Counted from the first letter of the stretch, positions 3,423 to 32,394 are shown. The stretch is 35,825 bases of DNA from Anaerolineae bacterium (GCA_016931895.1 JAFGDY010000289.1:1-35825); one strand, 5' to 3'. The notes: generated by a model not told the origin, from the sequence alone. Program-made: numbers and translations.

Positions 3423-6038
3423 TCAATTTATCCTGAAAATAATCGTTGTGTCGCCAATGGTAATCTGGTCGCCGTGGTTGAGTGAATATCGGTTCACGCG
3501 CTGGCCGTTGACCAATGTGCCATTAACGCTGTTTAAATCTTCCAAAATATATTCCCGGCCAACCCGCTGGATGCGGGCATGATGGCGAGACACGTTAGCG
3601 CCGGGCAAAACCACATGGTCTCGCGGGTGGCGGCCAATGGTAATGAGGTTGTTGGCAAAGCCCACCAGCCCTATTCCCGGCGCTTCAACGCCGGGCAGTT
3701 GGGCCGGGGGTCTGATTGCTGCCGTCCGGCGCGGCTGGCGATACAGCAGCAGCAAAACAAGGCCGCCCAAAACGGCCACGCCGGTAAGAAGATAAAGCGG
3801 ATTAAAACCCGAAGCCGTCTTTAAGGTGCGGGTAGACACCAACACGTTAAAGTCGGTGACGCCGGATGGCACTTGCATCCCCGTTACCGATAGTTGCCAT
3901 TGACCGGCCGGCGGGCGTTGGATAACCAAATACACCAGATTGCCAAACTCGCGGCGCACGGAATTTGGATAATTGGCCTCTACCGGCTGGCCCCGGGGGT
4001 CTATCAACTGCAAAGCCAATTGGCTGCCCGGCCAGTTCAAACTGACGGTAAGCTGCTGCGCCCCCCCGGCTACCTGAAACCCGTTCAGATTGACGGTTTC
4101 ATTCTGTTTTATTTGACCGCTGTATTGGGTAATTAATTTTCCCAGGGCCTGGTGACGAGATTGCAAATAAACCGTAGATAGTTCAAAGGCATTTTTAGCA
4201 TTGTAATACCGGCCGCAGCCGGAACCGGCGGCAATTTGCTGCAAAAAAGACTCGTCCAACGCGCCGGATGCGCCCAGGGGGGCGGGGCGGCCAAATCCAA
4301 TGGTAAAGATGCAAATATTGGCCGCTTTAGCCCGGGGCACCTGTTGGTTGAGGATTTCATCCTTTAAATCATCCACGTACTCCAATTCATCAAATATAAA
4401 AGGCGGCTGGGGATTGGCGTCGGAGGTGGTGGGCTGGCCGTCGCTCAAGAGCAGCAGGATACGGGCCGCGCCTGAAGGCGCGTTTTCCAGAATATCAATG
4501 CCCCGGTCCAGACCGGCGGCCATATTGGTCTGGTCCAGCGGGGAAAGCTGGCCCATCATCCGGCGCGCATCGTCCGGGTTATGGCTCAAGGGCAGGTTAA
4601 TTTTGGCCCTGTTGCTAAAACTGACCACGCCTACCTGGTGCGCGCCGGGCGCGAGCGTATTTTCGGTGTCAATCAGGTTCAAAATATCATGGCCGGCGGT
4701 GATGGCGGCTTCAATTTTTCTGGCTCCGCCCGGCTCCGGTTCTTCCATACTGCCGGACACATCAAACACCAGAGCCGTGGCGGTGTGGCCGCCGTCAACC
4801 GGCTGAATGTCAATCACCGGCTCAGGCTCAATGACCGGAGGGGGAACGGTAGGCGGTGTAACTACGGGCGGCTGGTTGACCGCCACATATTCATTTTCCA
4901 GAAGTTCCAGGATTTTTTGGCGCACCTCTTCCTTTTGATGGATATTGGTATGGAACAAGGCTCCAGCCAGAGGTAACATTTGGTCCAGATTGTCCAGTTT
5001 GATCTCCGGTTTTAGCAGCACCGCCTGGTAATGCAGGGTTATTTCGGCGTCGAAACCAAAGGGTTGGTAGTAAGGCGGATTGGGGCCGCTCCGGCCGCCC
5101 AGGTTGGGGATGGTGGTGGCATTGTCTTTACTGACCACCCAATCGCCCACGCTCAAAACCTGGCCCGAGGCTACCGGCATATCAAAAAATTTGGTAGCCA
5201 CATTCATGCCAATATCGCTGTATAACAGGTAATAATCAATATCATTGGGATTGGGGCGTTGGTTCAAGGTTTTAATGAACTCGCTGTTGGGGTCCAGCTG
5301 CTGCCCGGCCGGGCTTTCGGGATCAGGGAGCAATGAAATCATATCGGTTGACGCGCTGACAAATTCTTTGATAAAACTGCGAATCACCGGCTTGGCCATT
5401 TTATTTGGCACCGCCCGCGTCAATTGCTCGGCTACGGCGTCGGCGCCCTGGTTATACAGGTTAATGTATTCGCTGCCGCTGTGGGGCGTGGCCAGGTCTA
5501 TGAACCGGCCAATGTTGCCCTGGTATTGGGTTTGGCGCGGCCCGGCGTTGTGGCGATAAGCCAGCAGTTGGCGCGTCACCAGCCCGCCCAGGCTGTGAGC
5601 CACAATGTCCACCTGGCCGCTGCCCCCGCGCTGCCGGTCCACCTGGCTTAACACATTGACCGCTTCCATCAGGTAACGGGCGGTGCAGGTCACATCGGCC
5701 TCGCCGTCCGGCTGGCCGTTAGGGCCGGGCGGGTAACTCAAACGATGCACCAGGCTTGGGTCGTACTTTTGAATCAAACGGCCATACAGGCTGTGGGGGT
5801 CGTTTTCATCGCCCCACATGCTCGCGCTGCTGTTGAAGCCATGCACCAGCACCAGGGGATGCTGTTCTTGGGCCGGGTTGTTATGCTCCTGCGCGTAGGC
5901 CAGCAGTTCCTGGCCGTAGGTCGTGGGGTCGCAGGCAGGCGCTTGCGCTGCAACGGTTCCTGCCGAACCCGATATCAGGCTGAGACCAAACCACAGCAAG
6001 CCAAGCAACAGATAGCGGCGGTGATAAGCAGTTGTCAT
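3423..6038 (-). CDS. Signal peptide - lipase-like alpha/beta hydrolase - VWA - TM - cytoplasmic FHA protein
   Basis: 871 residues with an unusual domain order. A signal peptide (1-33, ending AQA) is followed by an alpha/beta-hydrolase with an oxyanion-type HGFNSSASMW (from about 66), nucleophile elbow AHSLGG (Ser about 149), ATPHSG (184-188), an acid-site candidate GDWVV (Asp about 299) and a His candidate in FHTNI (about 363): a lipase/PGAP1-like set that looks active. A Pro-rich linker leads to a VWA domain with complete MIDAS (DVSGS from 426, Thr about 504, SDG about 533), a beta-rich region, one TM helix (about 746-766) and an FHA domain (800-868; IGRH, VSRHH, NGTLVNG). The hydrolase and VWA should be outside and the FHA inside. 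Start chosen at 6038: it makes an ATGA overlap with the upstream stop and has GAGG seven bases away; the ATG at 6044 is too close to that site. Substrate unknown; esterase versus lipase cannot be settled. Confidence 0.9.
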   Translation of the reverse strand: MTTAYHRRYLLLGLLWFGLSLISGSAGTVAAQAPACDPTTYGQELLAYAQEHNNPAQEQHPLVLVHGFNSSASMWGDENDPHSLYGRLIQKYDPSLVHRLSYPPGPNGQPDGEADVTCTARYLMEAVNVLSQVDRQRGGSGQVDIVAHSLGGLVTRQLLAYRHNAGPRQTQYQGNIGRFIDLATPHSGSEYINLYNQGADAVAEQLTRAVPNKMAKPVIRSFIKEFVSASTDMISLLPDPESPAGQQLDPNSEFIKTLNQRPNPNDIDYYLLYSDIGMNVATKFFDMPVASGQVLSVGDWVVSKDNATTIPNLGGRSGPNPPYYQPFGFDAEITLHYQAVLLKPEIKLDNLDQMLPLAGALFHTNIHQKEEVRQKILELLENEYVAVNQPPVVTPPTVPPPVIEPEPVIDIQPVDGGHTATALVFDVSGSMEEPEPGGARKIEAAITAGHDILNLIDTENTLAPGAHQVGVVSFSNRAKINLPLSHNPDDARRMMGQLSPLDQTNMAAGLDRGIDILENAPSGAARILLLLSDGQPTTSDANPQPPFIFDELEYVDDLKDEILNQQVPRAKAANICIFTIGFGRPAPLGASGALDESFLQQIAAGSGCGRYYNAKNAFELSTVYLQSRHQALGKLITQYSGQIKQNETVNLNGFQVAGGAQQLTVSLNWPGSQLALQLIDPRGQPVEANYPNSVRREFGNLVYLVIQRPPAGQWQLSVTGMQVPSGVTDFNVLVSTRTLKTASGFNPLYLLTGVAVLGGLVLLLLYRQPRRTAAIRPPAQLPGVEAPGIGLVGFANNLITIGRHPRDHVVLPGANVSRHHARIQRVGREYILEDLNSVNGTLVNGQRVNRYSLNHGDQITIGDTTIIFRIN

Positions 6039-6517
6039 GGGCATGCCTCAACTTCGATGGTGGCAAAGAGCCACCACTTTCCTTCTTCCAGGTAATAGCG
6101 CAGCACGTAAAACTGGCTGGCTCGCTCGCGGGCCAGGCGAACGCAACCATCGGCCCATTGGCCGTTCCAGGGGTCTGCGCTCATAATGGCGGGCGGTTTG
6201 AGCACCTCCACCGTTTGCACCGGGCCGCCGGCGGTCTCGGCAGCTTGCATGCCCTGGCGAAAGCTATCCTCAGAGAACATTTCCTGCAACGAGGGGCCGA
6301 TTTCTCCCTGGAGGGCTTCGGGCTGATTGTTACGCATGGCCTCTACCACCCGTTCCTGCACCGGCCCCGGTTGGGAGCGGTCAGGCGCGGGCGTGGCGGT
6401 AGGAACGGTCACTGCCGGCCGGCGCTCCTGCCGGCTGAACCAAAGCAGGCCGCCCACAACGGCGATGATAATTAATGCGGCAATAAGGAGGGGGGTGTTG
6501 GTTTGTCGTTGGTTCAT
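6035..6517 (-). CDS. Small membrane-anchored protein, unknown function
   Basis: 160 residues: an N-terminal membrane helix (about 9-27, LLIAALIIIAVVGGLLWF) followed by Arg-rich residues, a short Thr/Pro linker and a globular part of about 100 residues outside the membrane. The globular part has alternating helices and beta strands ending in QFYVLRYYLEEGKWWLFATIEV, a pattern resembling NTF2-like or DUF4878-like folds; that is only an impression from the pattern. The start codon has AGGTGA upstream. Its stop overlaps the next gene's ATG by 4 bases (ATGA), so it is probably translationally coupled to the lipase-VWA-FHA protein and may act as its partner. A 147-base gap separates it from the kinase gene upstream. 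Confidence 0.8.
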   Translation of the reverse strand: MNQRQTNTPLLIAALIIIAVVGGLLWFSRQERRPAVTVPTATPAPDRSQPGPVQERVVEAMRNNQPEALQGEIGPSLQEMFSEDSFRQGMQAAETAGGPVQTVEVLKPPAIMSADPWNGQWADGCVRLARERASQFYVLRYYLEEGKWWLFATIEVEACP

Positions 6518-18763: not shown

Positions 18764-21700
18764 CTACTGCACGTCCATTCGGCTTTTGGCCCACTCTTGG
18801 GGATGAATGCCCGCATTGGCAATGATCTCCGTTTGACCGGCGCCGGCACCGTTCATTTTCCAGATACCCCAACTGCCGGAACGGGCGCTGCGAAAGATAA
18901 TGCCGCCGCCGGGCGTATACGTGGGCAAGGTATCAGGGCCGGGCGCGTCGGTCAAACGTTGCAAATTGGAACCATCTACATTGATGGTGTAAATATCCAT
19001 ATTGCCATCCACCTCGCGGCTAAAGGCAATGGCGCGGCCATCTGGCGACCAGGCCGGAAATGAATCGGTGCCGTGCAAGGTAAGATTGATATGGCCTGAA
19101 TCATCCCGGTTAGAAATCCACAAACCCTGCTTGTTGTCTCGTCCAGAACGATAGACCAAACGCTCCCCATCGGGCGACCAATCGCCTTGCTCCCCCACCA
19201 GTTCAAAACGATACAGCGGATTATCGGCCAAGCTTCTAAAATAAATACGGTAATCCCCGCCCGGCCGGGCGTCGTAGGCCACTGCTTGCCCATCCGGCGA
19301 CACATTGGCCCAACGCGCGCTGCCTTCTTTCCAGTCAAGATTTTGAAATACTCTATATCCGGCCTGTTCGCATACATCACCGGGTGGCAAATGCACGTCC
19401 ACCTGCTTTCGCTCGCAAGACCAGACGCCGTAATATACGGCGCAAATATCGCCTGTAGGCGGCACATCAATAGCCACAATGCCCCCGCTAATGGTGCCAA
19501 ACTCACAATCCACCCGCCCGTCTATAGTGATTTGTTGGTTTACGCCCTGCTCTCCAAAGAAAAAGAGGCGCTTCCCGTCAGGCGACCAGGAAGGCCCGGC
19601 CACCCGGTGCATAATTAACCGTTCATTTTTGCCGTTTGTATCGGCAATATAGGCATTGTGAAACTGGCCGTCCCATTTGGAATAGGTCAGCAGGTAAGTT
19701 CCGCCATCGCTGTTAACCGACGAGGGCGGAGGGGACGTTTTAGTGGGCAGCGGCGTGGCCGTGGGCAGGTTGGCCAGCTCCAACTCAGGGTTTGGACTGC
19801 TTTGGGCCAAAAACGGTTGCGCCGTTTTCTGTTCGTCGCCTGTAACGATATGGCCTGCGGCAAAAATAGCCCCCTCAGGCCCGGCCGCTAACCACAGATC
19901 GGTCACGAGCCGGTTACGGCTGATTGTTAGGGGAATATTGGGAGACCACTGTTGGCCGTTGATACTGCGTGATAAATAGGCTTTCAGTTCGCCGTCCCTA
20001 TCGTCCAGCCAGGTGGCGTAAAAAACGTTGTTGTCTCCCCTGACCAAACTCACATCCTCCCACCGGCCGGCCTGTTTGCCATTGTCATCACTGAGCCAAT
20101 TCAATTCGGGATGAGATCCGGCGCCGGTTTCCAGTAGGGCGGCCAAAACACCCGATTGTTGGTCATCTTCTCCCTGGCCTGCTTGCGAGGATACAATCAT
20201 CAAAAATTTATCCTCGGCCAGCGCGGTTAAGTAAGGCGGGCTATACGTTGTCCCTGTTTCAGTAATAATTTTTTGAGGCGCGCTCCAGGTTTGGCCCAAA
20301 TCGCGGGAGGTGATCATATAAAGTTGGTCTCTGTCCTCGTTCTGCTCCACCCAGGCCAGGCAAAGCGAGTCTTCAAATCGAACAACATTGCCGGGAATGA
20401 TGGGGCTGCCGGAACCGGCCAGTTTTTCATTGCTGCTCCAGGTTTCACTATCTTTTTGACTTGCAGCAAAGTAAAGGTCAAAAGAAGCGCCCTTGGTTTC
20501 AACCCACGCCGCGCCCAACCGCTCCGACCCCAGGGAAATGAGGTTAGCTCCATAGCGATCAGCCGGCCGGGATTCGTCGTTGACCACTACCGGCGCTTTC
20601 CAGGAGCCGCCGTTATTGGGGCTTAAACTGCTGAATACTTTTGTAGTACCCCCCGATTTTTCAACCCAAACAGCAAACAGGCGGCCCTGTTCATCATAAA
20701 CTAACCAATTATCGGCCAGTGGGGTTAAGATCGCTTCATCAGGCCGGTTGGTTGTTATGGGTATGCGCCGCGCCGCCGTCCAGTTTTGGCCCCGGTCTTC
20801 GCTGGCGGTCACTAGCAGGCCGGTTTCCGGCTGCAGCCAGCCCACGGCCAACCGGCCGGAAGAGTCGGCGGCAAGGGTGAGGTGCTCTTGCCGCGTGTCG
20901 CCGGGCAAATTTAAATTAGAGGTTAAAGGTTGCCATTTTTCACCGGCAATACCTGCCGCCATTTCTCCGGTTGGAGTAGCGTCACCTGGACGGGGTAATT
21001 CTTTCCCCCCCTCTGAACTCTCGGTAGAGGTTATTTTAGAAATAGGCTTGGCTACCGTAACAACAGGAGTGGTTGGAGTAGCGGCAGGGATAGTTGTCTT
21101 TTTGACCTCTAAGGAAATCTTCATTTGCCCCTCGCCCGCTATAGCTGTTGCCGTGCCTGTTTCCGGTTCTTTATCCCTACCCAGTAATACGACCGTTGTC
21201 ACCATTCCGGCCACGCACGCTACAGCCAGCAAAGCGGCGGCCACAACGAGCAGGTTACTTTTGCGCCGTTTCTTGTTGGGGGCCGGATAAGGGCCGAGTA
21301 CAGAACTATCCCAAACCGTTGTGGGCGGTTCATCCGGCACGGTTCCCTGTGCAGAAATGGGCGGAGGGGTATATTGCCCGACTTCACCTGAAACGCCACA
21401 AGCGGCGGCAAAGGCCCGGGCCAGAGCGCCGGCCGAAGCAAAACGTGTGGCGGGGTCTTTGGCCAAAGCCTGGGCCAACACCTTCTCCACCGCTTTGGGC
21501 ACATCTGGCCGGGCGGCGCGAATAGAAGGCAGCGGTTCATGCACGTGAGCGTACAACACGGCCATTGTGTCCCCCACAAAGGGTGGTTGTCCGGCCAGCA
21601 ATTCATAAATAACAACGCCCAGGGAATAAATATCTGATTGAACGGTGGGTTCTTGCCCTTTGATCTGTTCAGGCGAGGCGTAAAAAGGCGTGCCCACGCT

Positions 21701-22210
21701 GCCCTGTTCGGTGGTGATGCGGGTAGAATCACGATGCCAGGCAATGCCAAAGTCGGTTAAAACAATCCGGCCGTCGTTGCGCAAAATAATATTGGCCGGT
21801 TTCACATCACGGTGAACCATGCGGTGAGCGTGGGCGTGGTCCAGGGCCGCGGCAATTTGATTGAGCCAGACAGAAATTTGGGGCAAGGCGGGCAAACCCT
21901 GAGTTTGTGTCACTTTGTCCAGGGTGCGCCCGCCCACAAATTCCATGGCAATATAGTGCCGGTCATCCTCCTGATTCACATCAAAAATAGTAATGATGTT
22001 GGGATGTTGGAGGCTGGCGGCCAACTGCGCTTCCCTGCTAAACCGCTGCACAAATTTTTGGTCCCAGGCCAGGTGAGGGGCCAGCACTTTTAACGCGGCC
22101 ACCCGGTTCAACTGCGTATCCTGCACCCGATAAACAGCCCCCATGCCGCCCCGCCCCAGTTCATTCAAAATCTTGTAACGATTGGCGATGATTTGGCCTT
22201 CTTCAAACAT
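18764..22210 (-). CDS. Large receptor Ser/Thr kinase with sialidase-like and TolB-type double propeller
   Basis: 1148 residues, the largest protein here. Kinase about 11-270: LGRGGMGAVY, Lys41, HRDVKPAN (Asp135), DFG at 153-155, SVGTPFY, and ASPE in place of APE. Basic juxtamembrane NKKRRKSN, TM helix about 319-343, then two ectodomains. The first (about 430-800) carries Asp-box-like repeats (SEDRGQNW, SPNNGGSW, SRDLGQTW, SINGQQW) typical of sialidase/BNR propellers; without the catalytic Arg/Tyr set traced, I read it as a fold rather than an enzyme. The second (about 840-1140) has TolB/PD40 repeats (WSPDGKRLFF, SPDGERLVYRSG, WSPDGRAIAFSR). AAGAGGT precedes ATG at 22210; only 8 bases separate it from the FHA gene upstream. 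Sensor function inferred. Confidence 0.94.
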   Translation of the reverse strand: MFEEGQIIANRYKILNELGRGGMGAVYRVQDTQLNRVAALKVLAPHLAWDQKFVQRFSREAQLAASLQHPNIITIFDVNQEDDRHYIAMEFVGGRTLDKVTQTQGLPALPQISVWLNQIAAALDHAHAHRMVHRDVKPANIILRNDGRIVLTDFGIAWHRDSTRITTEQGSVGTPFYASPEQIKGQEPTVQSDIYSLGVVIYELLAGQPPFVGDTMAVLYAHVHEPLPSIRAARPDVPKAVEKVLAQALAKDPATRFASAGALARAFAAACGVSGEVGQYTPPPISAQGTVPDEPPTTVWDSSVLGPYPAPNKKRRKSNLLVVAAALLAVACVAGMVTTVVLLGRDKEPETGTATAIAGEGQMKISLEVKKTTIPAATPTTPVVTVAKPISKITSTESSEGGKELPRPGDATPTGEMAAGIAGEKWQPLTSNLNLPGDTRQEHLTLAADSSGRLAVGWLQPETGLLVTASEDRGQNWTAARRIPITTNRPDEAILTPLADNWLVYDEQGRLFAVWVEKSGGTTKVFSSLSPNNGGSWKAPVVVNDESRPADRYGANLISLGSERLGAAWVETKGASFDLYFAASQKDSETWSSNEKLAGSGSPIIPGNVVRFEDSLCLAWVEQNEDRDQLYMITSRDLGQTWSAPQKIITETGTTYSPPYLTALAEDKFLMIVSSQAGQGEDDQQSGVLAALLETGAGSHPELNWLSDDNGKQAGRWEDVSLVRGDNNVFYATWLDDRDGELKAYLSRSINGQQWSPNIPLTISRNRLVTDLWLAAGPEGAIFAAGHIVTGDEQKTAQPFLAQSSPNPELELANLPTATPLPTKTSPPPSSVNSDGGTYLLTYSKWDGQFHNAYIADTNGKNERLIMHRVAGPSWSPDGKRLFFFGEQGVNQQITIDGRVDCEFGTISGGIVAIDVPPTGDICAVYYGVWSCERKQVDVHLPPGDVCEQAGYRVFQNLDWKEGSARWANVSPDGQAVAYDARPGGDYRIYFRSLADNPLYRFELVGEQGDWSPDGERLVYRSGRDNKQGLWISNRDDSGHINLTLHGTDSFPAWSPDGRAIAFSREVDGNMDIYTINVDGSNLQRLTDAPGPDTLPTYTPGGGIIFRSARSGSWGIWKMNGAGAGQTEIIANAGIHPQEWAKSRMDVQ

Positions 22211-22218
22211 ATTACCTC

Positions 22219-22722
22219 TTAAGATTTATTAGCAGCTCTGAAAATAAGGATGGTGCTGCCAACCTGAATTCTGTTACCATTCCCCAAATTTTGTTCTCTA
22301 ATAGCTTTGCCGTTAACTATCGTTGGCACCCGGCGCGATAGATTGCAGATTTTATAACGATGGCCGTTCCAGTATACCCGGGCCTGAACCATGTCTGCGC
22401 CGGAGTCCGCCCGCAAGCGCACTGTATTTTGCGGACCGGCGCCCAGGTAAACTTCCTGATACCCACTCAGGTTATGACTTCGCCATTGGCTATGCGCCGC
22501 TTCAAACCAGATGGTGGGCATCTTCTGGCCGCTCCGCTTGGGTTTAGGCCGGGGATTGGCCTGGTTGCGCCCTTGCCGGTTGGCTTCAATGGAAAATTTG
22601 TTTTTGCCAAAGATATTGATGTGCGCCCGTACCCGGTCGCTAATAAGCAGCGCCAGGATGACAACAACCATTGCCAGGATGATGAATACAAGGATGATGT
22701 TTGAAACGTCCAAAATACTCAC
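22219..22722 (-). CDS. Membrane-anchored degenerate FHA-like protein
   Basis: 167 residues: one N-terminal membrane helix (about 8-27), a basic Pro-rich linker (50-66) and an FHA-like fold at the C-terminus (about 88-163). The fold is recognisable from the final part, TIVNGKAIREQNLGNGNRIQVGSTILIF, by length and pattern, but the phosphate-binding residues are gone: GR becomes GAG and the SRxH loop becomes MVQAR. It therefore probably does not bind phospho-Thr in the usual way, or has another role. Located 4 bases after the VWA-FHA gene and 8 bases before the double-propeller kinase, so tightly co-transcribed with both. A structural or decoy role is only a guess. Confidence 0.82.
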   Translation of the reverse strand: MSILDVSNIILVFIILAMVVVILALLISDRVRAHINIFGKNKFSIEANRQGRNQANPRPKPKRSGQKMPTIWFEAAHSQWRSHNLSGYQEVYLGAGPQNTVRLRADSGADMVQARVYWNGHRYKICNLSRRVPTIVNGKAIREQNLGNGNRIQVGSTILIFRAANKS

Positions 22723-22726
22723 CCTT

Positions 22727-24697
22727 TTATTTAACTTGTTTAAACACCAACCGCACCCGGCCTAACTCAATCTTATCGCCGTCCTCCAATCTCATCCCGG
22801 AGGTTTCTTGCCCGTTAACGCGGATGGGGTTGGTGGCGGCCAGGTCGTAAATATAAAAAACGCCCCGGCTCTGCTGTTTAATGCGGGCGTGGCGGCGGCT
22901 GACCGAGCCGTCGTCAATCACCAGGTCGCATTGGCCGCCGTCGCGGCCAATGGTGTTTTGCTCGCCCAGGGGATATTGCTGGCCGGGCCGGTTGCCCTGT
23001 TCCATCACCAAAAAAGCAACGGCACCGGTAGCCTCACCAATGGCCTGGGTCGGCGGGATGGGCATGCCCACTCCGGGCCGGCCAGGCGGCGCCACACCGG
23101 GAGCCTCCCCGGTTACGATCAGCGGCACGCCCGAGGCAGAGGGGGGCGCGGTTGGCCCGGCTGGGGGAAAATCAAAAGGTCCCGGTCCTATTGGTGCCGG
23201 GGGCTGTTGCGTGGGAGCGTCGGCATAATCTACTCCTACCGCGACCACTTCGGGTTCGGTGCGTCGGGCGCGTAAAATGAGGGCAGTAGCCACCACCAGG
23301 ATAATGAGCAGGATGATGATGACCACCCAGGCCCAGACCGGCAGCAGTGATTCATCCGTCACCAGCCAGCCGGCGCGCATCGTCACCGCTTTTTCGCCCT
23401 GGTTAGACGGCGATTGGTCGTCGTAGGCTACTACCCGAATCCGGTGGCCGCCAGGCGTAACCGTGGCGGTGTCCCACAAATAACTGAAAGGGGCATTGGT
23501 TACGATAAATGGTTCGGCGGCGTCATCTATAAAATACTCCACGCGCTCAATGGGATAACGGGCCGAAATAACCGGCACAATATTAAAAAGTTTATACTCG
23601 TCACTTTGAGGCACTTCAAAGTTATCTGGCAATGGTTCCATGGTGGGCTTGCCGCCAACCACCTCTGAGGGTTTCTCATAAAAAAGTTGGATGCCGGGTT
23701 TTACCGGGCACAGGGCGGTAAAGGTTTCGGTATTTACGGTTTCGCCGTCTATGGTTTTTACCTTTATTTCCAGGCCGTGGTCTTTGTTGTCGCAGCGAAG
23801 ATTTGAGGCAAAAGTCAGGTCATATTGGGTTTTGAGCTGGTCAGAAATTTCTTGGTAAACTCCGGCCAAAGCGGCGGCCTCGGCGGCCTCAAAATAGCTG
23901 CCGCCGGTCAGCACGGCCAAACGCCGCAGGTATTCGGTATCGGGTAAAGCGCCCAGGCGAATACTAAACACGGGAATATGCTTATTTTGGGCTTCGGAAA
24001 TGGCCGCTTCCTGGCTCAATTTGCTTACCGGCGTGCCATCCTCGCGGCCCTCTTTGCCATCGGTAAACAGGATAACCGCCCGTTTGCCGCTGCCCCCTTT
24101 TTTTTCGGCGGCCAGGCGCACCGATTTATAGGCCCCATCATATAAAGGGGTGGTGGTTTCGCCGGGCACGGGGTCGGGCAGGTTTTCGACTTTGGCGATC
24201 AAACTCTGTTTGTCGGCTGTAAAATTGGCCTCCCGCACCGGGTCAATGTTTTCCAAAATGGGTTCATTGGTGTTCACGGCGTCGCCAAAAACAACCAGGG
24301 CCGCTTCATCGGCCGGGCCAAGCGCCCGTAAAAAAGTAATGGCCGACTCTTTAGCCTGACGCCAGGGTTTAAAGTTACCGGCGCCCATGCTGCCGCTGCC
24401 GTCAATGGCCAATACCACCGATATTTTTACATCGGGATTGACTTTTTCGGTCACGGTCTTGATTTCCACCCGCTTGCCATCCTCGGCGGCCTGAAAGTCG
24501 CCCGGCTGTAGCTGCCGGTAGGGAATACCGCTATTGTTGATAACGGTGACAGTTGTTTTTAATTCAGGGAAGGCGTTGTAATCAAACTCATTAAAGGCGA
24601 GGTTGACCCCTTCTTGAGACGAGGCGGTGACAGTAAATAATAAGAGCAATCCCAGGGTTAAGAAGGTGATAAGTTGACTGCGTTTTTTGGTATCCAT
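22727..24697 (-). CDS. Signal peptide - VWA - Ig-like - TM - cytoplasmic FHA protein
   Basis: 656 residues. Signal peptide (1-27), a beta-rich N-terminal segment, then a VWA domain (about 92-290) with a full MIDAS: DGSGS (99-103), Thr in GETTTPLYDG (about 181-183) and FTDGKEG (Asp213). An Ig-like module follows (about 365-440, ERVEYFIDDAAEPF and APFSYLWDT), then TM (about 455-476), a Pro/Gly-rich cytoplasmic linker and a C-terminal FHA (582-656) with IGRDGGQCD, VSRRHAR and a changed NGT (ATNPIRVNG). By analogy with VWA proteins it should make metal-dependent contacts outside while the FHA reads kinase output inside. The linker ends in PTQAIGEATG, a Thr with Ile at +3, near the position where sister FHA proteins have a conserved Thr motif. 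ATG at 24697 has AGAGG upstream. Confidence 0.92.
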   Translation of the reverse strand: MDTKKRSQLITFLTLGLLLLFTVTASSQEGVNLAFNEFDYNAFPELKTTVTVINNSGIPYRQLQPGDFQAAEDGKRVEIKTVTEKVNPDVKISVVLAIDGSGSMGAGNFKPWRQAKESAITFLRALGPADEAALVVFGDAVNTNEPILENIDPVREANFTADKQSLIAKVENLPDPVPGETTTPLYDGAYKSVRLAAEKKGGSGKRAVILFTDGKEGREDGTPVSKLSQEAAISEAQNKHIPVFSIRLGALPDTEYLRRLAVLTGGSYFEAAEAAALAGVYQEISDQLKTQYDLTFASNLRCDNKDHGLEIKVKTIDGETVNTETFTALCPVKPGIQLFYEKPSEVVGGKPTMEPLPDNFEVPQSDEYKLFNIVPVISARYPIERVEYFIDDAAEPFIVTNAPFSYLWDTATVTPGGHRIRVVAYDDQSPSNQGEKAVTMRAGWLVTDESLLPVWAWVVIIILLIILVVATALILRARRTEPEVVAVGVDYADAPTQQPPAPIGPGPFDFPPAGPTAPPSASGVPLIVTGEAPGVAPPGRPGVGMPIPPTQAIGEATGAVAFLVMEQGNRPGQQYPLGEQNTIGRDGGQCDLVIDDGSVSRRHARIKQQSRGVFYIYDLAATNPIRVNGQETSGMRLEDGDKIELGRVRLVFKQVK

Positions 24698-24730: not shown

Positions 24731-25846
24731 TTAACTCTGATGAGTGGCAAATAACCAATAGCTAAAAAGAAGGCCAATGATAAAGCCCAATCCTGCGCTT
24801 CCCCCAACAAAGGTACTCCACGTCAATTTCGAACTGATGACGAAGACAACGGCGGTGATACTCAATTGCAAAAAAATCAAAATCACCAAAGCGAGGATCG
24901 CGGTTGAGATTCTCGAAAATTTGGGGGATTTTTGAGCAGAAAGTTGAATAGTTTTGGCCGGGGCGGCTGTGGTAGCCGGCCGAATCAGTCTATCCGTATT
25001 GGCCAAGTTTTTCTCCGCCTCGCTGGCCTGCCGGTGAGGGCCAAAGACCCGGCCGCCGGGTAAACTGGGGGCGTTCCGGCTGTCTAGGCGAGCAATGAGC
25101 ACGGTAATGTTATCCTCGCCGCCCCGGCTGTTGGCTAATTGCACCAGTTGCCGGCAGGCGGTTTTAGGGTCGGGCTGGCCGGTTACTATTTGGGTCATTT
25201 CCAAAGGATTGACTTTATTGGTCAAGCCGTCGCTGCATAAAATAAGCGTATCGCCAGGGTACACGTCTTGGATCATCCGGTCTACCCGCACCACAACGTT
25301 GTTGCCCAGCGCCCGCAGTAGCAAATTCTTTTTGGGATGATAGTAGGCTTCGCTGGCCGTCATGGCCCCGCTGGCTACCTGGTCGGCCACCCAGGAGTGG
25401 TCCTGAGTGATTTGTTGTAACAGCCCGTTTCGCAGCAAATAGGCCCGGCTATCTCCCACATGGCCAATAAAGAGCTGCTGACCGGAGAGCAAAGCCACCG
25501 TGGCCGTTGTGCCCATCTGGGTTACTCCCAGTTGGGTTGACAGGTCTAGCAGGCGGTCGTTGACGGCTTCAATGACGTCTTTTAAAACCGCCGCATAATA
25601 ATCGGCGCGGCCGGGGCTATAATCAACCAACTGCTGAAATTGGCCGGTGGAAAAGAATTGGTCCAAACTGGCAATGGTATATCCACTGGCCATATCACCG
25701 GCCTGATGACCGCCCATGCCATCGGCCACGGCCAATAACAGGGTTACATTTGGCGGTAAATTAGGTTGGGTTAAAATCAGGTAACTATCTTCATTAAGTT
25801 CCCTGACCCGACCCCGGTCGGTGAGATGGCCAATTTGAAAGCCCAT
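24731..25846 (-). CDS. PP2C-type Ser/Thr protein phosphatase with two C-terminal membrane helices
   Basis: 371 residues. Intact PP2C core: LNED (17-20), DGMGGH (42-47), GDSRAYLLR (131-139), CSDGL (204-208) and RGGEDN (241-246). After the core comes a linker containing AKTIQL (Thr299, Leu at +3, an FHA-compatible pattern) and two membrane helices (about 316-338 and 346-366) with almost nothing outside, unlike the two PP2C genes at the left end, which have ectodomains. ATG at 25846 overlaps the stop of the upstream FHA gene as TAATG, which indicates translational coupling and suggests that this enzyme acts on the GarA-like FHA set directly upstream. Expected to dephosphorylate kinases and/or FHA proteins at the inner membrane. 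Confidence 0.95.
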   Translation of the reverse strand: MGFQIGHLTDRGRVRELNEDSYLILTQPNLPPNVTLLLAVADGMGGHQAGDMASGYTIASLDQFFSTGQFQQLVDYSPGRADYYAAVLKDVIEAVNDRLLDLSTQLGVTQMGTTATVALLSGQQLFIGHVGDSRAYLLRNGLLQQITQDHSWVADQVASGAMTASEAYYHPKKNLLLRALGNNVVVRVDRMIQDVYPGDTLILCSDGLTNKVNPLEMTQIVTGQPDPKTACRQLVQLANSRGGEDNITVLIARLDSRNAPSLPGGRVFGPHRQASEAEKNLANTDRLIRPATTAAPAKTIQLSAQKSPKFSRISTAILALVILIFLQLSITAVVFVISSKLTWSTFVGGSAGLGFIIGLLFSYWLFATHQS

Positions 25847-26742
25847 TACAATTTGCCGCTTTTAACTTGCATAAAAGATAGGGTGGTGCGGCCAATATTT
25901 ATCTGGTCGCCATCTTCCAAAATATGACGGTCTATTTCACTGTTATTCACTTTGGTGCCGTTGGTGCTGGCCAGGTCGTGCAAAACAAAGCGCCCCTTTT
26001 CCAGTTTCACTCGGGCGTGCTGGCCGGAGGCCGAGGTGTCGTCCAGCACAATGTCGCATTGTTGGGCATCCCGGCCCAGGGTGGTCACTTCAGCCAATCT
26101 ATACTCTTTGCCGGCCCGCGGCCCGGAGCGAATAACCAGAAAGGCCATTTCTTCCGGCATCTGATGGAGCAATTCGGTTTTGGCCGGGCCGGGCACGCCC
26201 GGGGCCGGCCCGCCGAGAAAAGAGACACCGGCCATGCTGCCGCCTATATTTTCGGTGGGTAAGGGGGCCACAGGCGGGATTTGCCCAGGGTCAGTTGCGG
26301 TGGCTCCTCCTGCCCAGGGAGGCGCAGGAGATTGCCCGGTGGGCGGTTCAAAGGTTGGCAGCGGAGATGCCGGATACGGCGGCATGCCCATTTCGCCTGC
26401 ATATACCTCGGCGTTATAAAAAATTTTGGCCAGGTATCCCAAAATTGAAATTAGCCCGGCCACCGCCGCGCCGATACCCAGGTAAGCCAATAACGGCACC
26501 GCGTGGATAACATTTTGGGCAATACGCTCGTCTATGGCCACCGCTACCGAAGGCACCAGGAAGACAATAGACACCACAATCAAAACCTTCCAGATAAGTG
26601 GTTCGGTGCCTTTGCGTTGGGAGTCGTAAAAAATCCAGAAAGCGCCCAGCAAGGCCACGCCCAGGGTCACAAAGGCAATCCAACTATACCATTGTAAAAC
26701 TACAATATTTTCACCATAAATGGCCGGATTTAAGTCTCTCAC
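25846..26742 (-). CDS. Membrane GarA-like FHA protein
   Basis: 298 residues. Three hydrophobic segments (about 21-38, 50-69, 82-104), a Pro/Gly-rich cytoplasmic linker, then an FHA domain (about 189-294) with LGRDAQQCD and STNGTKVNN; the binding loop reads SGQH rather than SRxH. Two Thr motifs lie before the FHA: TENIG (Thr153) and AKTELL (Thr179), the latter 34 residues before the Gly of the FHA GR. This layout resembles the GarA/OdhI family, in which a phosphorylated N-terminal Thr folds back on the FHA. Start is GTG at 26742, with a strong AAGGAGGT 11-12 bases upstream; no ATG fits better. Paralogous to 27096-28094 and 28703-29608. Its stop overlaps the PP2C start (TAATG). Confidence 0.9.
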   Translation of the reverse strand: MRDLNPAIYGENIVVLQWYSWIAFVTLGVALLGAFWIFYDSQRKGTEPLIWKVLIVVSIVFLVPSVAVAIDERIAQNVIHAVPLLAYLGIGAAVAGLISILGYLAKIFYNAEVYAGEMGMPPYPASPLPTFEPPTGQSPAPPWAGGATATDPGQIPPVAPLPTENIGGSMAGVSFLGGPAPGVPGPAKTELLHQMPEEMAFLVIRSGPRAGKEYRLAEVTTLGRDAQQCDIVLDDTSASGQHARVKLEKGRFVLHDLASTNGTKVNNSEIDRHILEDGDQINIGRTTLSFMQVKSGKL

Positions 26743-26743
26743 C

Positions 26744-27085
26744 TCAATCTTTGACCTCCTTAAACACCAGTTTTACCTTACCCAGTTGAATAACATCTCC
26801 ATCCAGCAAGGCTTGTTTTTCAATCGATTTGTCGTTTAGATAGGTGCGGTTTCGGCTGGCCAGGTCGTATAAGACAAAACGATTATTTTCATATTTAATC
26901 ACCGCATGTTCCGCCGACACATGTTCATCATCCAGGATAAGGTCATTCGTGGCGGTGTCGCGGCCAATGCGATAGGTGGTATGACCAATGCGTTGGGGTT
27001 TCTTGGGAGAACGAACGCCGCTCCGTATCACCAGGAATGCTTCGGGCAGTGGAGGCTGGCCCATAATTTTTGTTTTTGCGACCAT
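26744..27085 (-). CDS. Soluble single-domain GarA-like FHA protein
   Basis: 113 residues, essentially one FHA domain with a short N-terminal tail. FHA signature: IGRDTATND, then SAEH in the binding loop (Arg missing) and SRNRTYLND where NGT is usual (NRT). The tail contains AKTKIM with Thr5 36 residues before the FHA Gly, matching the Thr motif in the neighbouring FHA proteins (AKTELL, ERTKLM), and the first strand AFLVIRSG is identical to that of the protein encoded downstream at 25846-26742. ATG at 27085 has AAGGAGC upstream. A cytoplasmic phospho-switch or adaptor is likely; the loop substitutions mean binding to phospho-Thr needs testing. Confidence 0.88.
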   Translation of the reverse strand: MVAKTKIMGQPPLPEAFLVIRSGVRSPKKPQRIGHTTYRIGRDTATNDLILDDEHVSAEHAVIKYENNRFVLYDLASRNRTYLNDKSIEKQALLDGDVIQLGKVKLVFKEVKD

Positions 27086-27095
27086 TGTCTGCTCC

Positions 27096-28094
27096 TTATT
27101 TCATTTGTTTAAAGACCAGCACGGTTCGGCCTAAACTTACTTCGTCGTTATCTTGCAGCACTTGTTTGGAAACATCTGCTCCATTTACTTTGGTGCCATT
27201 GGCCGTAGCCAGGTCAAACAGGGTAAATACATCTTGGTTATCTTGGCCTTTACTTTGGCGGATTTTAACGTGTTGGCGCGAAATGGCCGTGTCGTCTAAA
27301 ACAATATCGCAGTTACTTGGGTCCCGGCCAATGGTGGTTGCTTCAGGGCTGAGATGGTACAATTTACCGGCGCGGGAGCCTTCTTTCACCACAAACCAGG
27401 CGTTCACCGTAGTGGGGACAGCGTTGAGTAGTTCTGTTTTGGGAGGCGCGCTTCCTACCTGCCCCACCAGGCCAGGTCCCGCCATTCCCCCGCCGCCCAT
27501 ACCAATTTGTTCTGTAACCGGGTGGGACATTTGGGCCGTGGGGTCAACCGGAAACGAACCAGGAACCTGGGGGGTAGGTGGGGAAAAGTCTACCTGGGGT
27601 TGAGTGGGAGGATACGCGCCCATAGTTGGCTCCATCCCGCCATAAAACGGCGCGGGCGAAGCAACCGACACCGCTTGACGGGCGCTTTGAAAATAGCCAA
27701 TAACGCTAATAATGCTGCCCACCAAACCGGCCAGGCTCAAATACAAAAACCACTCCAGATTTTGATAGTCAACGCCTATCTCTTCGGTTAAGCCTAACTG
27801 CGCGGCAATGGTCTCAAAGGCCTGGGTTATGTTTTCACCAAATTGTTCAGAAAACTCGGCCCGTCCTTCCAGATAACTTTGCAAGAGTTGCTTATCTTCT
27901 TCTTGAAAATGCAAAGTGGTCCAGGCGGCCGGCAGGGTCAAGGCCAGGCTCACCAAACCTATGGCCAACCAGAGGCTGGCTTGAATATTCTGTTGGCGGG
28001 CCGCATACCAGATATAACCCGTTACAATCAACACAATGGCCGGCACAACCAGGGCCACGTAGTTGAGATACCAGAGTTCAATTATTTTTTCCAT
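27096..28094 (-). CDS. Membrane GarA-like FHA protein
   Basis: 332 residues. Three membrane segments (about 12-30, 40-58, 116-135), with a charged helical stretch between the second and third (62-112), then a Pro/Gly-rich linker and a C-terminal FHA (about 232-330) with canonical IGRDPSNCD, ISRQH and ANGTKVNG, so phospho-Thr binding looks intact. Linker motifs: VTEQIG (Thr194) and PKTELL (Thr220); Thr220 is 36 residues before the FHA Gly. The N-terminal 75 residues align closely with those of 28703-29608 (IELWYLN start, LPAAWT), showing gene duplication. AAAGGAGT precedes ATG at 28094. The 113-base gap upstream contains no feature I can support. Confidence 0.91.
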   Translation of the reverse strand: MEKIIELWYLNYVALVVPAIVLIVTGYIWYAARQQNIQASLWLAIGLVSLALTLPAAWTTLHFQEEDKQLLQSYLEGRAEFSEQFGENITQAFETIAAQLGLTEEIGVDYQNLEWFLYLSLAGLVGSIISVIGYFQSARQAVSVASPAPFYGGMEPTMGAYPPTQPQVDFSPPTPQVPGSFPVDPTAQMSHPVTEQIGMGGGGMAGPGLVGQVGSAPPKTELLNAVPTTVNAWFVVKEGSRAGKLYHLSPEATTIGRDPSNCDIVLDDTAISRQHVKIRQSKGQDNQDVFTLFDLATANGTKVNGADVSKQVLQDNDEVSLGRTVLVFKQMK

Positions 28095-28207
28095 AGTCCA
28101 ATTACTCCTTTAGAAAACGGTGAATTTTTACCGGTCATCCTAACCTTCGCTGAATCACTGAGTCGCGCGGTTTTAATTTGTGACCACGCTATGAATAATA
28201 ATTTTGC

Positions 28208-28681
28208 TTAATCAACTTTTTTGAATACAAGAACGGTCCGACCAATTTCTATTCGGTCTCCATCCTTGAGGGGGTGTTTAACCACTTCTTCCCCGTTAAG
28301 TTTGGTGCCATTTGGGGTTGCCAGGTCATGGAGAACAAATTCCTGCTCGCCTTCAGAATTTTTTAAGACCCGTATCTTGACATGCTGGCGCGAGATAGCC
28401 GAGTCATCCAGAATAACGTCACAGTCAGTGTCGCGGCCAATGGTGGTATCATCTGGATTGAGATGATAAATCTTACCGGCTCGCATGCCTTCCCGGATCA
28501 CCACCCAGGCAAAAGTGGGCGGGGTAGTATCTAGTAGTTCTGTTTTAGCCTGGGGACCGGCCATGCCTGCCGGCCCATAACCGGCCTGCTGACCAGCCTG
28601 CCCCATTTGTTCGGTGGGCCGATAACCGCCCGGTTCCGCACCCGGCCATTGCGTGGTTGGATTTTCATAATCTTGACTCAT
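28208..28681 (-). CDS. Soluble GarA-like FHA protein
   Basis: 157 residues, no membrane helix. An N-terminal Gly/Gln/Pro-rich tail of about 55 residues carries PTEQMG (Thr23) and AKTELL (Thr47); the FHA domain (about 57-155) has IGRDTDCD, ISRQH and PNGTKLNG, the full phospho-Thr pocket. Length, order and the strand pattern WVVIREGMRAGKIYHL resemble actinobacterial GarA/OdhI (about 140-160 residues), where a kinase phosphorylates a tail Thr and the FHA then binds it, releasing target enzymes. I infer the same switch but not the same targets; nothing of central metabolism is encoded nearby. AAGGAG precedes ATG at 28681. Confidence 0.91.
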   Translation of the reverse strand: MSQDYENPTTQWPGAEPGGYRPTEQMGQAGQQAGYGPAGMAGPQAKTELLDTTPPTFAWVVIREGMRAGKIYHLNPDDTTIGRDTDCDVILDDSAISRQHVKIRVLKNSEGEQEFVLHDLATPNGTKLNGEEVVKHPLKDGDRIEIGRTVLVFKKVD

Positions 28682-28702
28682 CAGTTTCTCTCCTTAATCT
28701 CA

Positions 28703-29608
28703 TCAACGCACTTCTTTAAAGGTAAATGTCATCGCGCCCAGGCGAATTTCGTCTCCATCTTCCAGCCGCTGGCGTTGAATGCGCTGGTTATTGAGAAAAG
28801 TGCCGTTAGTGCTGGCCAGGTCGTACAACCAGAAGGTATTATGTTCCGGCCTGATTTTGGCGTGTTGTCCAGAAACAGACTCGTGGTCCAAAACCACCTG
28901 GCACCGGCCGTCGCGGCCAATAACCGATTCGCCTGTGCCAATAGGATAGCTCTTCCCCTGGCGCGACCCGCTCCGAACGACCAACCAGGCCACTACCTGG
29001 GCCGGTTCTGCCATAAGTTTGGTGCGTTCTAAAGGGGGAGAACCACTTTTAGCCGCAGATGGTATAGATGGCGGGACTGTAGCGGTTGGCGCCGGAGGCG
29101 TTACCGGCGGGGGGGGCTGTTGGGGATATGTTGGCGGCATTTGATATGTTTGCGGATAGTCTGTGGGCGGCGGAGAAACCACAAAAGAAGCCGACGCGCT
29201 ACGATAATATCCGGCTCCGGCAATGACGCTGCCCACAAAACCGGCAATGCTTAAATAAATAAACATTTCCAGATTGTCATAATTGATATTGGTTGTTTGG
29301 GTCAGCCCCATCTGTTGGGCCAGGGCTTCAAGCACTCTGGTGACATCTTCGCCAATAAGCTGTTGGGAGGTTCTCACCTGATCCAGATAGGCCTGTAAAA
29401 GTTCTTTCTCAACCTGATCCATATTCAGCGCAGTCCAGGCCGCCGGCAGAGTTGCGGCCAGGCTGACCACGCCGACAATCAGCCAGTTGGTGGCCGGCAC
29501 GGCTTTTTGATTGGCGTCGTACCAAATATATCCGGCCACGGCCAGGGCAATTACCGGTACAATGATCGCCACACTGTTTAGATACCAAAGCTCAATCAAG
29601 TTTTCCAT
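28703..29608 (-). CDS. Membrane GarA-like FHA protein
   Basis: 301 residues from the chosen start. N-terminal membrane segments (about 12-29, 40-58, 116-134), a long Pro-rich cytoplasmic linker (about 140-190) and a C-terminal FHA with IGRDGRCQ, SGQH (Arg of the loop replaced) and TNGTFLNN. LERTKLM (Thr196) lies 35 residues before the FHA Gly, matching the Thr motif of four neighbours. An in-frame ATG six bases earlier (29614) is only three bases from its AGGAG; the second ATG (29608) is nine bases away and gives MENLIELWYLN, matching the paralogue's MEKIIELWYLN, so I use it. Directly follows the FHA-kinase-FHA gene. Confidence 0.91.
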   Translation of the reverse strand: MENLIELWYLNSVAIIVPVIALAVAGYIWYDANQKAVPATNWLIVGVVSLAATLPAAWTALNMDQVEKELLQAYLDQVRTSQQLIGEDVTRVLEALAQQMGLTQTTNINYDNLEMFIYLSIAGFVGSVIAGAGYYRSASASFVVSPPPTDYPQTYQMPPTYPQQPPPPVTPPAPTATVPPSIPSAAKSGSPPLERTKLMAEPAQVVAWLVVRSGSRQGKSYPIGTGESVIGRDGRCQVVLDHESVSGQHAKIRPEHNTFWLYDLASTNGTFLNNQRIQRQRLEDGDEIRLGAMTFTFKEVR

Positions 29609-29632
29609 AATCATTATCTCCTGGGTTAATTA

Positions 29633-31267
29633 TTATTTAACTTCAAACCGCAATAAGGCATTGCCAATTTGAATCTGGTCGCCATGTTGTAAAATAGCCA
29701 TCTGGTCAATTCTGACCCCGTTCAAAAACGTGCCGTTAACAGATATATCTTTCAGCCAGTAACGACCTTCATGATTTTCAACCTGAGCATGCGTGCGTGA
29801 AATGAGATGGTCGTTTGGCTCAATATCGCGACGGTGTAGTTCAACGATTGTGGTATTAAGCCGAATAGTTCGGCCGTTGTGGAGAACCACCAATTGGGCT
29901 TGCTGTGTTGGTTTCCAAAAAAGGCTGTCATCAATGTGGCTGGTCACTTGAGGGGTATAGCCAATCGCCCCGGCCAATTCCAGCGCGGTCTGGAAACGAC
30001 GATTTTTGTCTTTCTCCAGGCAACGCAGGGTGGCTTTTTCTAAATGAGCCGGGATCTGAGCATTGAGTTTGCCGGGCGGGGTGGGCGCCTGGGTAACGTG
30101 ATAATGAACTATCTGCAAAGTATCTTGGCTAAAAAATGGCACATAGCCGGTCAACAATTCATACAGCACTACGCCTAACGAGTAAATATCGCTCCGCCCG
30201 TCAACCTGATGGCCTTTGGCCTGTTCATAAGATAAATACAAAGGCGTGCCCACAATCATGCCGTCGGCGGTGTGGGTAGTTTGAGACGTGATGCGGGCAA
30301 TACCAAAGTCAATCAATTTCACCTGGCCTTGGGTATTGAGCATAATATTTTCTGGCTTAATATCCCGGTGATAAATACCCAATTTGTGGGCGTATTGCAG
30401 GGCCTCACAAGTTTGACCCACAATGGATACCACTTTATCAAAGGGCAACCGGCCTTGAGCCATCCGCGCGCGCAGGGTAGGGCCATCCACATATTCCATA
30501 ATCAGATAAAGTTTGTTGTCAGGGGTAACGCCGCCGCCATAAATCCGGGCAATATGGGGATGGCGTAGGGTTTGTCCGTATCTGATTTCCCCCTGAAACT
30601 TTTGGCGTAAATATGGATCAGGCCGAACCAGAAATTTAATGGCCACTGTCTCTCCCTTTTGGTCTTGCGCTTTGACTACTTGGGCCGCCCCACCGCCGCC
30701 CAAGTTTTGCAACCTTTGATAATTTTGTAGATTAATATCTTTAGAATCAGAAGGCGCAGATACCGGTTGTGAGAGGGTCTGAGGCGGTGGGGAAGGGGCT
30801 GGCGTAACCACGCTGCGGTTATCTTGAAAAGCAAAAATGGTCGGCCCGATCTGAATTTGATCCCCCGACTTTAGATAATGTTGGGCAACCCGTTCTCCAT
30901 TAACCCAGGTGCCGTTGACACTCCCCCGGTCATACAGAACCCAACGGTTGGTATGATCTAACGTAATCTGAGCATGGTTTCTTGAAACCAGATCGTTGTG
31001 TATTGTTAAATTATTTTCCTGGCCCCGGCCAATGGACAACGGTTTTTGTTGAGCCTGGGCAGGATTAATGGAAATTCGTCGTCCCTGATATTCTCCCTTA
31101 AGACCACTTAATTCCACTAAATGATTTGCAGGAAAAGATGTGGCTCCAGACTGTTTTCCGGGAAAAGATGTGACCACAGGTTGTTTGCCAGGGGGAGACT
31201 TTACAATAAAAAAAACAACCACCACAACAACGACCAAAATAATGACTAAAAAGGTTAGACCATCCAT
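29633..31267 (-). CDS. Membrane-tethered FHA-kinase-FHA Ser/Thr protein kinase
   Basis: 544 residues. A single N-terminal membrane helix (about 5-23) with no outer domain tethers FHA-1 (about 77-148; IGRGQEN, VSRNH, VNGTWVNG), a kinase (about 183-437) and FHA-2 (about 448-544; ISRTH, VNGTFLNG, but HRRD where GR is usual). Kinase motifs: LGGGGAAQVV, VAIK (Lys211), YHRDIKPEN (Asp302), DFG at 320-322; the APE region reads SYE, so that structural motif is altered while catalytic residues remain. With FHA domains on both sides it can read phospho-Thr marks and write new ones, a design fit for signal relay. The start lacks an obvious Shine-Dalgarno. It is the first kinase of the leftward block, 30 bases after the HTH gene. 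Confidence 0.94.
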   Translation of the reverse strand: MDGLTFLVIILVVVVVVVFFIVKSPPGKQPVVTSFPGKQSGATSFPANHLVELSGLKGEYQGRRISINPAQAQQKPLSIGRGQENNLTIHNDLVSRNHAQITLDHTNRWVLYDRGSVNGTWVNGERVAQHYLKSGDQIQIGPTIFAFQDNRSVVTPAPSPPPQTLSQPVSAPSDSKDINLQNYQRLQNLGGGGAAQVVKAQDQKGETVAIKFLVRPDPYLRQKFQGEIRYGQTLRHPHIARIYGGGVTPDNKLYLIMEYVDGPTLRARMAQGRLPFDKVVSIVGQTCEALQYAHKLGIYHRDIKPENIMLNTQGQVKLIDFGIARITSQTTHTADGMIVGTPLYLSYEQAKGHQVDGRSDIYSLGVVLYELLTGYVPFFSQDTLQIVHYHVTQAPTPPGKLNAQIPAHLEKATLRCLEKDKNRRFQTALELAGAIGYTPQVTSHIDDSLFWKPTQQAQLVVLHNGRTIRLNTTIVELHRRDIEPNDHLISRTHAQVENHEGRYWLKDISVNGTFLNGVRIDQMAILQHGDQIQIGNALLRFEVK

Positions 31268-31695: not shown

Positions 31696-32394
31696 TTAGT
31701 GTAGGTCAACCAGGTATTGCGCCACAGTGTGAATCGCCACTCTCAATTCACGATAGTATTGGCGTTCACTGATTGATAATCTCAAGGCAATATTTGAGGG
31801 GTTCATTTTTTCGTAGTAGGTCAGCGTCAAAATATCATGGCGTAACTGCCACCGCGACCAAGTGGCCTGGTCGGCAAAAAGTTTTACCGACTCAATAGCC
31901 TGGGTTAGAATTTGTTGCAGGCTTGAGCCATCCAAATAAATTTGCCAGGTTTCAGCCATTAATTTGGCCAATGCACTTCTCTCTAAATAACGCGTGTTAT
32001 CCAAATAACGAAGCGCGTTACGGACAATTTTTTCTATTTTCTGTTGCTGCCGGATAAAAAAGAGTTGGGTCAATTGCTCTAAATCTTCTTGTAGACTCAT
32101 CTCTTTTATTTTTTCCACGCAGCGAGGCGGAAATAGATCATCAATATTTATCTGATCAACATAAATATTTACCCATGCCGCCTTATGAACTTGATATTGC
32201 CTGGAAAGCAAAAAATCAACCGGACATTGTGACCTTTTCGTACCGGGTAGGGAGGCGGGAGAGGTTTCTGACGCATCCGTTCCATTTTTCACATGCTCAG
32301 AAGGCGTTTGGAGAGCTTGCAGTTGCTTCCGGTACTGAAAAATCAATTTGATGAGTTCTGTTTTAGGCAAGCTTTTTAGTTGATGAGCATCCAT
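31696..32394 (-). CDS. Helical protein with C-terminal HTH, unknown function
   Basis: 232 residues, mostly helical by pattern, no membrane segment. The N-terminus has a short helix (LPKTELIKLIFQYRKQL), then a variable Ser/Thr-rich linker (36-55), a central helical domain (60-175) and a C-terminal segment (about 180-228; NPSNIALRLSISERQYYREL) that looks like a sigma-region-4 or LuxR-like HTH. The same kind of HTH occurs in the NB-ARC protein at 33980-35392 (VANWLNVGESTAYRKQ). Starts 6 bases after the stop of the upstream DJ-1-like gene, so it is the last gene of that operon; no clear ribosome-binding site precedes ATG at 32394. Probably a DNA-binding regulator; not identified further. Confidence 0.82.
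   Translation of the reverse strand: MDAHQLKSLPKTELIKLIFQYRKQLQALQTPSEHVKNGTDASETSPASLPGTKRSQCPVDFLLSRQYQVHKAAWVNIYVDQINIDDLFPPRCVEKIKEMSLQEDLEQLTQLFFIRQQQKIEKIVRNALRYLDNTRYLERSALAKLMAETWQIYLDGSSLQQILTQAIESVKLFADQATWSRWQLRHDILTLTYYEKMNPSNIALRLSISERQYYRELRVAIHTVAQYLVDLH

Follow-up and report, generated by a model that had tools for sequence, protein, structure and literature searches.

A shared threonine ahead of FHA domains suggests that kinases make bacterial adaptor proteins clip together like chain links

The window, by which we mean the whole stretch of 35,825 nucleotides from an Anaerolineae bacterium that was analyzed (a single contig), contains a tight series of genes on the minus strand: an FHA-kinase-FHA protein is followed by five FHA adaptors (proteins E, D, C, B, and A), a PP2C phosphatase, a VWA-FHA protein, a degenerate FHA protein, and further kinases. 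Most of the intergenic gaps are 1 to 33 bases long, or else the genes overlap. The main features, in the order of transcription, are as follows.

29633..31267, minus strand: FHA-Ser/Thr kinase-FHA protein, upstream of the five adaptors, with no equivalent of their Thr motif kept before its own FHA domains; a candidate for the kinase and for an alternative reader of the adaptors' phosphothreonines
28703..29614, minus strand: protein E, 303 amino acids, with three predicted transmembrane (TM) segments, a linker, the Thr motif, and an FHA domain (28736-28924)
28208..28681, minus strand: protein D, 157 amino acids, soluble, with the Thr motif and an FHA domain (28241-28447)
27096..28094, minus strand: protein C, 332 amino acids, with three predicted TM segments, a linker, the Thr motif, and an FHA domain (27129-27338)
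26744..27085, minus strand: protein B, 113 amino acids, soluble, with only the Thr motif and one FHA domain (26780-26974); AAGGAG precedes the ATG
25846..26742, minus strand: protein A, 298 amino acids, with three predicted TM segments, a linker, the Thr motif, and a C-terminal FHA domain (25891-26085)
24731..25846, minus strand: PP2C phosphatase with a C-terminal TM segment; a candidate for resetting the phosphorylation state
22727..24697, minus strand: VWA-FHA protein, 656 amino acids, with two predicted TM segments and an FHA domain (22760-22954)
18764..22210, minus strand: Ser/Thr kinase with a PD40/BNR sensor region, downstream on the same strand

The FHA domains of proteins A to E and of the VWA-FHA protein all match the Pfam model (PF00498) with 62 to 79 bits, versus a cut-off of 20.7. 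A first-pass annotation of this DNA described three of the five adaptors as tied to the membrane, and the proteins at 25846, 27096, and 28703 do each have three predicted membrane segments; its count of seven kinases in the window was matched by domain annotation. The genome as a whole has 47 FHA matches. The degenerate FHA protein (22219-22722, minus strand) has a TM segment and lacks GR and SxxH. It is also kept in the corresponding cluster of G004, which is another genus of the same family (locus L074, 16373-16900), so a non-binding FHA protein seems to be a conserved member of the cluster. Elsewhere in the window, one protein (3423-6044, minus strand) joins an alpha/beta-hydrolase, a VWA domain, and an FHA domain, which is an unusual combination.

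In-frame translation and alignment place a threonine shortly before the FHA domain of six of these proteins, as follows.

29012..29029, minus strand: ERTKLM, protein E (Thr198 counted from the first ATG at 29614, or Thr196 counted from 29608)
28532..28549, minus strand: AKTELL, protein D (Thr47)
27426..27443, minus strand: PKTELL, protein C (Thr220)
27062..27079, minus strand: AKTKIM, protein B (Thr5)
26167..26184, minus strand: AKTELL, protein A (Thr189)
23039..23056, minus strand: PPTQAI, VWA-FHA protein (Thr550); KTSVI in the G004 orthologue

The motifs in the five neighboring adaptors had been noticed in the first-pass annotation, and all five, each of the form T-x-x-[LM], were found in frame on the minus strand; the threonine given there as Thr179 of the protein at 25846-26742 is correctly Thr189. 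Those threonines had been placed 34 to 36 residues before the Gly of GR, and we measured 34, 36, 36, 35, and 35 (proteins A to E). The spacing from the Thr to the first residue of FHA strand 1 is tighter, at 12, 12, 13, 12, and 12 residues. The sixth copy, in the VWA-FHA protein, had been missed: it lies 34 residues before the Gly and 12 before strand 1. An alignment of the six paralogues has 22 invariant columns, and the Thr is the sole one upstream of the FHA domain, strand 1 included. G82, R83, S97, H100, and N124 are also invariant, so each adaptor's FHA domain has the Arg, Ser, and Asn that are expected to bind phosphothreonine.

Some similar strings are not part of this pattern. We excluded AKTIQL, which lies just before the TM segment of the PP2C phosphatase (24731-25846), as relatives in G004 and G035 lack it there. 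PKTELI occurs in the product of 31696-32394, which is unrelated and has no FHA domain, and looks like chance. In another genome, a PP2C-like ORF of 504 amino acids (L195, G497:C109) contains a run of at least 7 TATTEL repeats; here a T-x-x unit is iterated within a phosphatase that adjoins FHA genes.

We then considered whether the Thr is invariant in homologues, which was the check proposed in the first-pass annotation: it is kept in every G004 orthologue and is enriched among more distant relatives. The G004 motifs are KTEVL, KTQVL, KTKVM, KTELL, KTSVI, and RTRQM (twice), all with a hydrophobic residue at +3, and the linkers around them have otherwise changed. RTRQM occurs twice because G004 encodes protein E as two tandem copies (L074, G004:C473, 8492-9292 and 9283-10203), a duplication in which the motif was kept. 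A scan of the collection with a single protein returned 9 loci, among them the closest related cluster, which is from a MAG named as Chloroflexi. Across 12 related clusters, which include the window's own and several from other families and classes, T-x-x-hydrophobic lies 10 to 17 residues before strand 1 in 42 of 59 non-kinase FHA domains, versus 4 of 20 kinase FHA domains, which served as an internal control. The automatic anchor missed AKTEVL in two more VWA-FHA proteins (L119 and L120), and one VWA-FHA protein of a related cluster does lack the motif. In six clusters, a small soluble adaptor starts with the Thr at about residue 4 to 6, sometimes after a clear Shine-Dalgarno sequence, so that the tail is reduced to the motif itself. 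None of 8 FHA domains from loci in other phyla (L158-L163) had the motif at this position, a sample that is too small to limit its range.

To quantify the enrichment, we clustered C-terminal FHA proteins at 60% identity, which left 70, and shuffled each linker. T-x-x-[LIMVF] was present at positions -16 to -11 from strand 1 in 40 of the 70, versus 6.8 ± 2.4 in the shuffles (maximum 16 in 2,000 shuffles); what is counted here is non-redundant sequences rather than separate origins in evolution. The other 30 lack the motif. The proteins were collected either because they resemble protein D or because they are among the FHA matches of the window's own genome, so the fraction is not a census. Without the clusters from the window and G004, 34 of 63 relatives had the motif (6.0 ± 2.3 when shuffled), and with a cut-off of 45% identity, 17 of 36 did (3.5 ± 1.8). 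Among the 63 relatives outside the discovery clusters, Thr outnumbers Ser by 32 to 2 in the motif zone, versus 22 to 22 further upstream (P = 2e-5). Of the ungapped pairs that share 45-90% identity, 40% keep the Thr, and 10-22% keep the residues beside it. For the positional profile we used strand 1 as the anchor, because anchoring on GR alone is blurred by loop length; the spacing from Thr to strand 1 among the relatives is mostly 12 to 15. GR, SxxH, and Asn are intact in 59 of the 70, and the presence of the motif was not correlated with the integrity of the pocket (P = 0.75), because nearly all of the pockets are intact. From these comparisons, the Thr element is real and conserved well beyond this genome. 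Because it is kept in orthologues, exceeds the shuffles, and is Thr far more often than Ser, it is under selection and is a probable FHA ligand.

Kinases of this type may also favor threonine, so the bias towards Thr is not in itself proof of FHA binding. In the flanks of the Thr, hydrophobic residues occupy +3 in 68% of cases and +2 in 54% (background 18%), and acidic residues occupy -2 in 29% (against 10% in the background). The self-ligands of DgcB, GarA, and OdhI share hydrophobic residues at +2 and +3 and Glu at -2, and the +3 residue is a crucial recognition feature for FHA self-ligands (PMC6733907). The scarcity of Ser also fits, as FHA domains prefer phosphothreonine over phosphoserine (PMC3146460). 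Overall, it is likely that the Thr, when phosphorylated, is a ligand for an FHA domain.

The shared Thr tag suggests that the adaptors are phosphorylation-gated connectors, each with a phosphothreonine ligand and an FHA receptor, that bind in trans, and we give this a slightly better than even chance. The sequences show the motif, its selective conservation, the preference for Thr and for a hydrophobic +3, pocket residues that are kept almost everywhere, and the gene neighborhood; that the Thr is phosphorylated, that it binds FHA domains and does so in trans, and which kinase and output belong to it, we infer. A kinase from the cluster, most simply the upstream FHA-kinase-FHA protein, would phosphorylate the Thr, and the phosphothreonine would dock in the FHA pocket of a neighboring molecule, either another copy or a paralogue. 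Docking would build homogeneous or mixed chains from the three-TM proteins, the VWA-FHA protein, and the small soluble adaptors, and PP2C would take these chains apart. Counting against this model, 30 of the 70 C-terminal FHA relatives have no such motif, and its presence does not track the integrity of the pocket.

The phosphothreonine tails might instead be bound by the FHA-kinase-FHA protein through its own FHA domains, which would let this kinase draw in its substrates or let the membrane adaptors draw in the kinase; binding between adaptors would then be secondary. A gene for such a protein is in or adjoins most of the related clusters, its FHA domains have no tail of their own while most keep the pocket residues, and PknG and GarA are a precedent for coupling a kinase to an FHA protein, albeit in the opposite direction. 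However, docking to the kinase does not explain why each adaptor has an FHA domain of its own, mostly with an intact pocket, or why the Thr is at a fixed position beside that domain, and no FHA-kinase-FHA gene is present in the stretch read at loci G430 and G450. We consider it unlikely.

The first-pass annotation had proposed an intramolecular switch like that of GarA or OdhI; the phosphorylated Thr would then fold onto the protein's own FHA domain and shut out other partners. Part of this holds up. The Thr is conserved, so the proposal passed the half of its own refutation test that sequences can address; its flanks are ligand-like (acidic -2, hydrophobic +2 and +3, Thr rather than Ser) and resemble the tails of GarA, OdhI, and DgcB, and kinases and PP2C are encoded alongside. 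GarA, OdhI, FhaA, and DgcB are the closest solved structures, and GarA and OdhI are the best matches both by structure (Z of 19.1, rmsd of 1.3 over 99 residues, 37% and 35% identity) and by sequence (E of 1e-24 to 1e-26). Folding in cis is the part that is not supported. Mapped via alignments, the Thr is about 35 residues before strand 1 in GarA (pThr22), 33-34 in OdhI, and about 21 in DgcB, but 12 here. The part of protein D that superposes on the ordered FHA domain of GarA begins at residue 53-54, or +6/+7 from the Thr, so only about three free residues would lie between the docked +3 residue and the base of the domain, and these would have to span the distance from the apical cleft to that base; GarA spans its gap with a disordered linker (residues 34-54). 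Nor do the relatives suggest that the linker must have some minimum length. AlphaFold models of proteins D and B have confident FHA domains (most residues above 90), with the motif at low confidence and outside any strand, and indicate nothing about the motif's partner. From the residue counts, we infer that binding in cis is unlikely and that binding in trans, as with Thr9 of TIFA, is likely. The analogy with GarA and OdhI is thus partly supported: it is good for the fold and the ligand chemistry and fails for the geometry, and the cis switch as a whole seems quite improbable. Trans action between adaptors is our preference, at roughly even chances; trans binding would not by itself require a fixed spacing, which counts against the trans model.

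It is very unlikely that the motif is not a phosphosite at all and is instead structural or an unrelated short motif (a strand cap, a protein-protein contact, or a start-site artifact): hydrophobic residues at +2 and +3 could suit a short strand, and the members of one cluster look more alike because they are close paralogues, but the motif lies outside strands in both AlphaFold models, its Thr is seldom swapped for Ser where +3 is hydrophobic, and it recurs among relatives of less than 45% identity.

If adaptors do bind each other in trans, then the broadest form of the proposal, which we put forward only tentatively, is a bacterial assembly wired by phosphothreonine and widespread in Chloroflexota, in which paralogous FHA adaptors polymerize or mix. 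Co-encoded kinases would phosphorylate the common tail to form signaling clusters like TIFA assemblies; some of the adaptors would be membrane-bound, and protein B would be a ligand and a receptor and nothing else. At 113 residues, protein B would then be a minimal assembly unit controlled by phosphorylation, and assembly in trans of the TIFA type would exist in bacteria. Bacterial genomes carry many FHA proteins and Ser/Thr kinases, most of them with no known target, and a fixed Thr beside the FHA domain is a concrete, testable candidate phosphosite shared by dozens of proteins. We found no paper that combines FHA, phosphothreonine, and Chloroflexi. The parts are known, but as far as we found, a whole FHA family wired by a common Thr tag has not been described.

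Among known systems, GarA from M. tuberculosis and OdhI from C. glutamicum are likewise small FHA proteins with an N-terminal Thr that is targeted by kinases and binds the FHA pocket, and their tails share with the adaptors an acidic -2 residue and hydrophobic residues after the Thr. In the adaptors, 12 residues separate the Thr from strand 1; in GarA and OdhI the distance is about 33-35, much of it a long disordered linker, and binding is in cis. GarA and OdhI bind and inhibit 2-oxoglutarate dehydrogenase; the adaptors are six paralogues in one cluster, three of them with three TM segments. The conserved N-terminal motif of GarA and OdhI is ETTS (PMC8546545); it was not found in the adaptors from the window or G004, where the motif is [KRP]-T-x-x-[LIM].

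DgcB from Bdellovibrio bacteriovorus has a bacterial N-terminal tail, LEKpTSIV, with the same pattern at -2, +2, and +3, bound by a GarA-type FHA domain (6hc0/6hc1; PMC6733907). Unlike the adaptors, it has a GGDEF enzyme after the FHA domain, and its Thr is further from strand 1. Between its docked part, which extends to +7, and the domain lie ten residues that are not resolved, and its authors left open whether binding is in cis or in trans, noting that inter-chain binding may dominate (PMC6733907).

Binding of one molecule's N-terminal segment by another's FHA domain is seen in MDC1 (3unn/3uot) and kanadaptin (PMC4157861). Both are eukaryotic; Thr4 of MDC1 is further from its FHA domain than the adaptors' Thr is, and the kanadaptin peptide is an unphosphorylated mimic. 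Another case is TIFA, an adaptor of mammalian innate immunity, whose Thr9 is separated from the FHA domain by only a few residues and whose phosphorylation drives intermolecular binding of FHA to phosphothreonine and the formation of oligomers (PMC7083832). TIFA differs from the adaptors in that it is eukaryotic, is an intrinsic dimer, has another sequence around the Thr, and binds TRAF6; we compared the two as FHA folds only, and the likeness is of mechanism, not of kinship. Set beside these systems, the adaptors are self-ligand FHA proteins of a new variety rather than a new kind of system.
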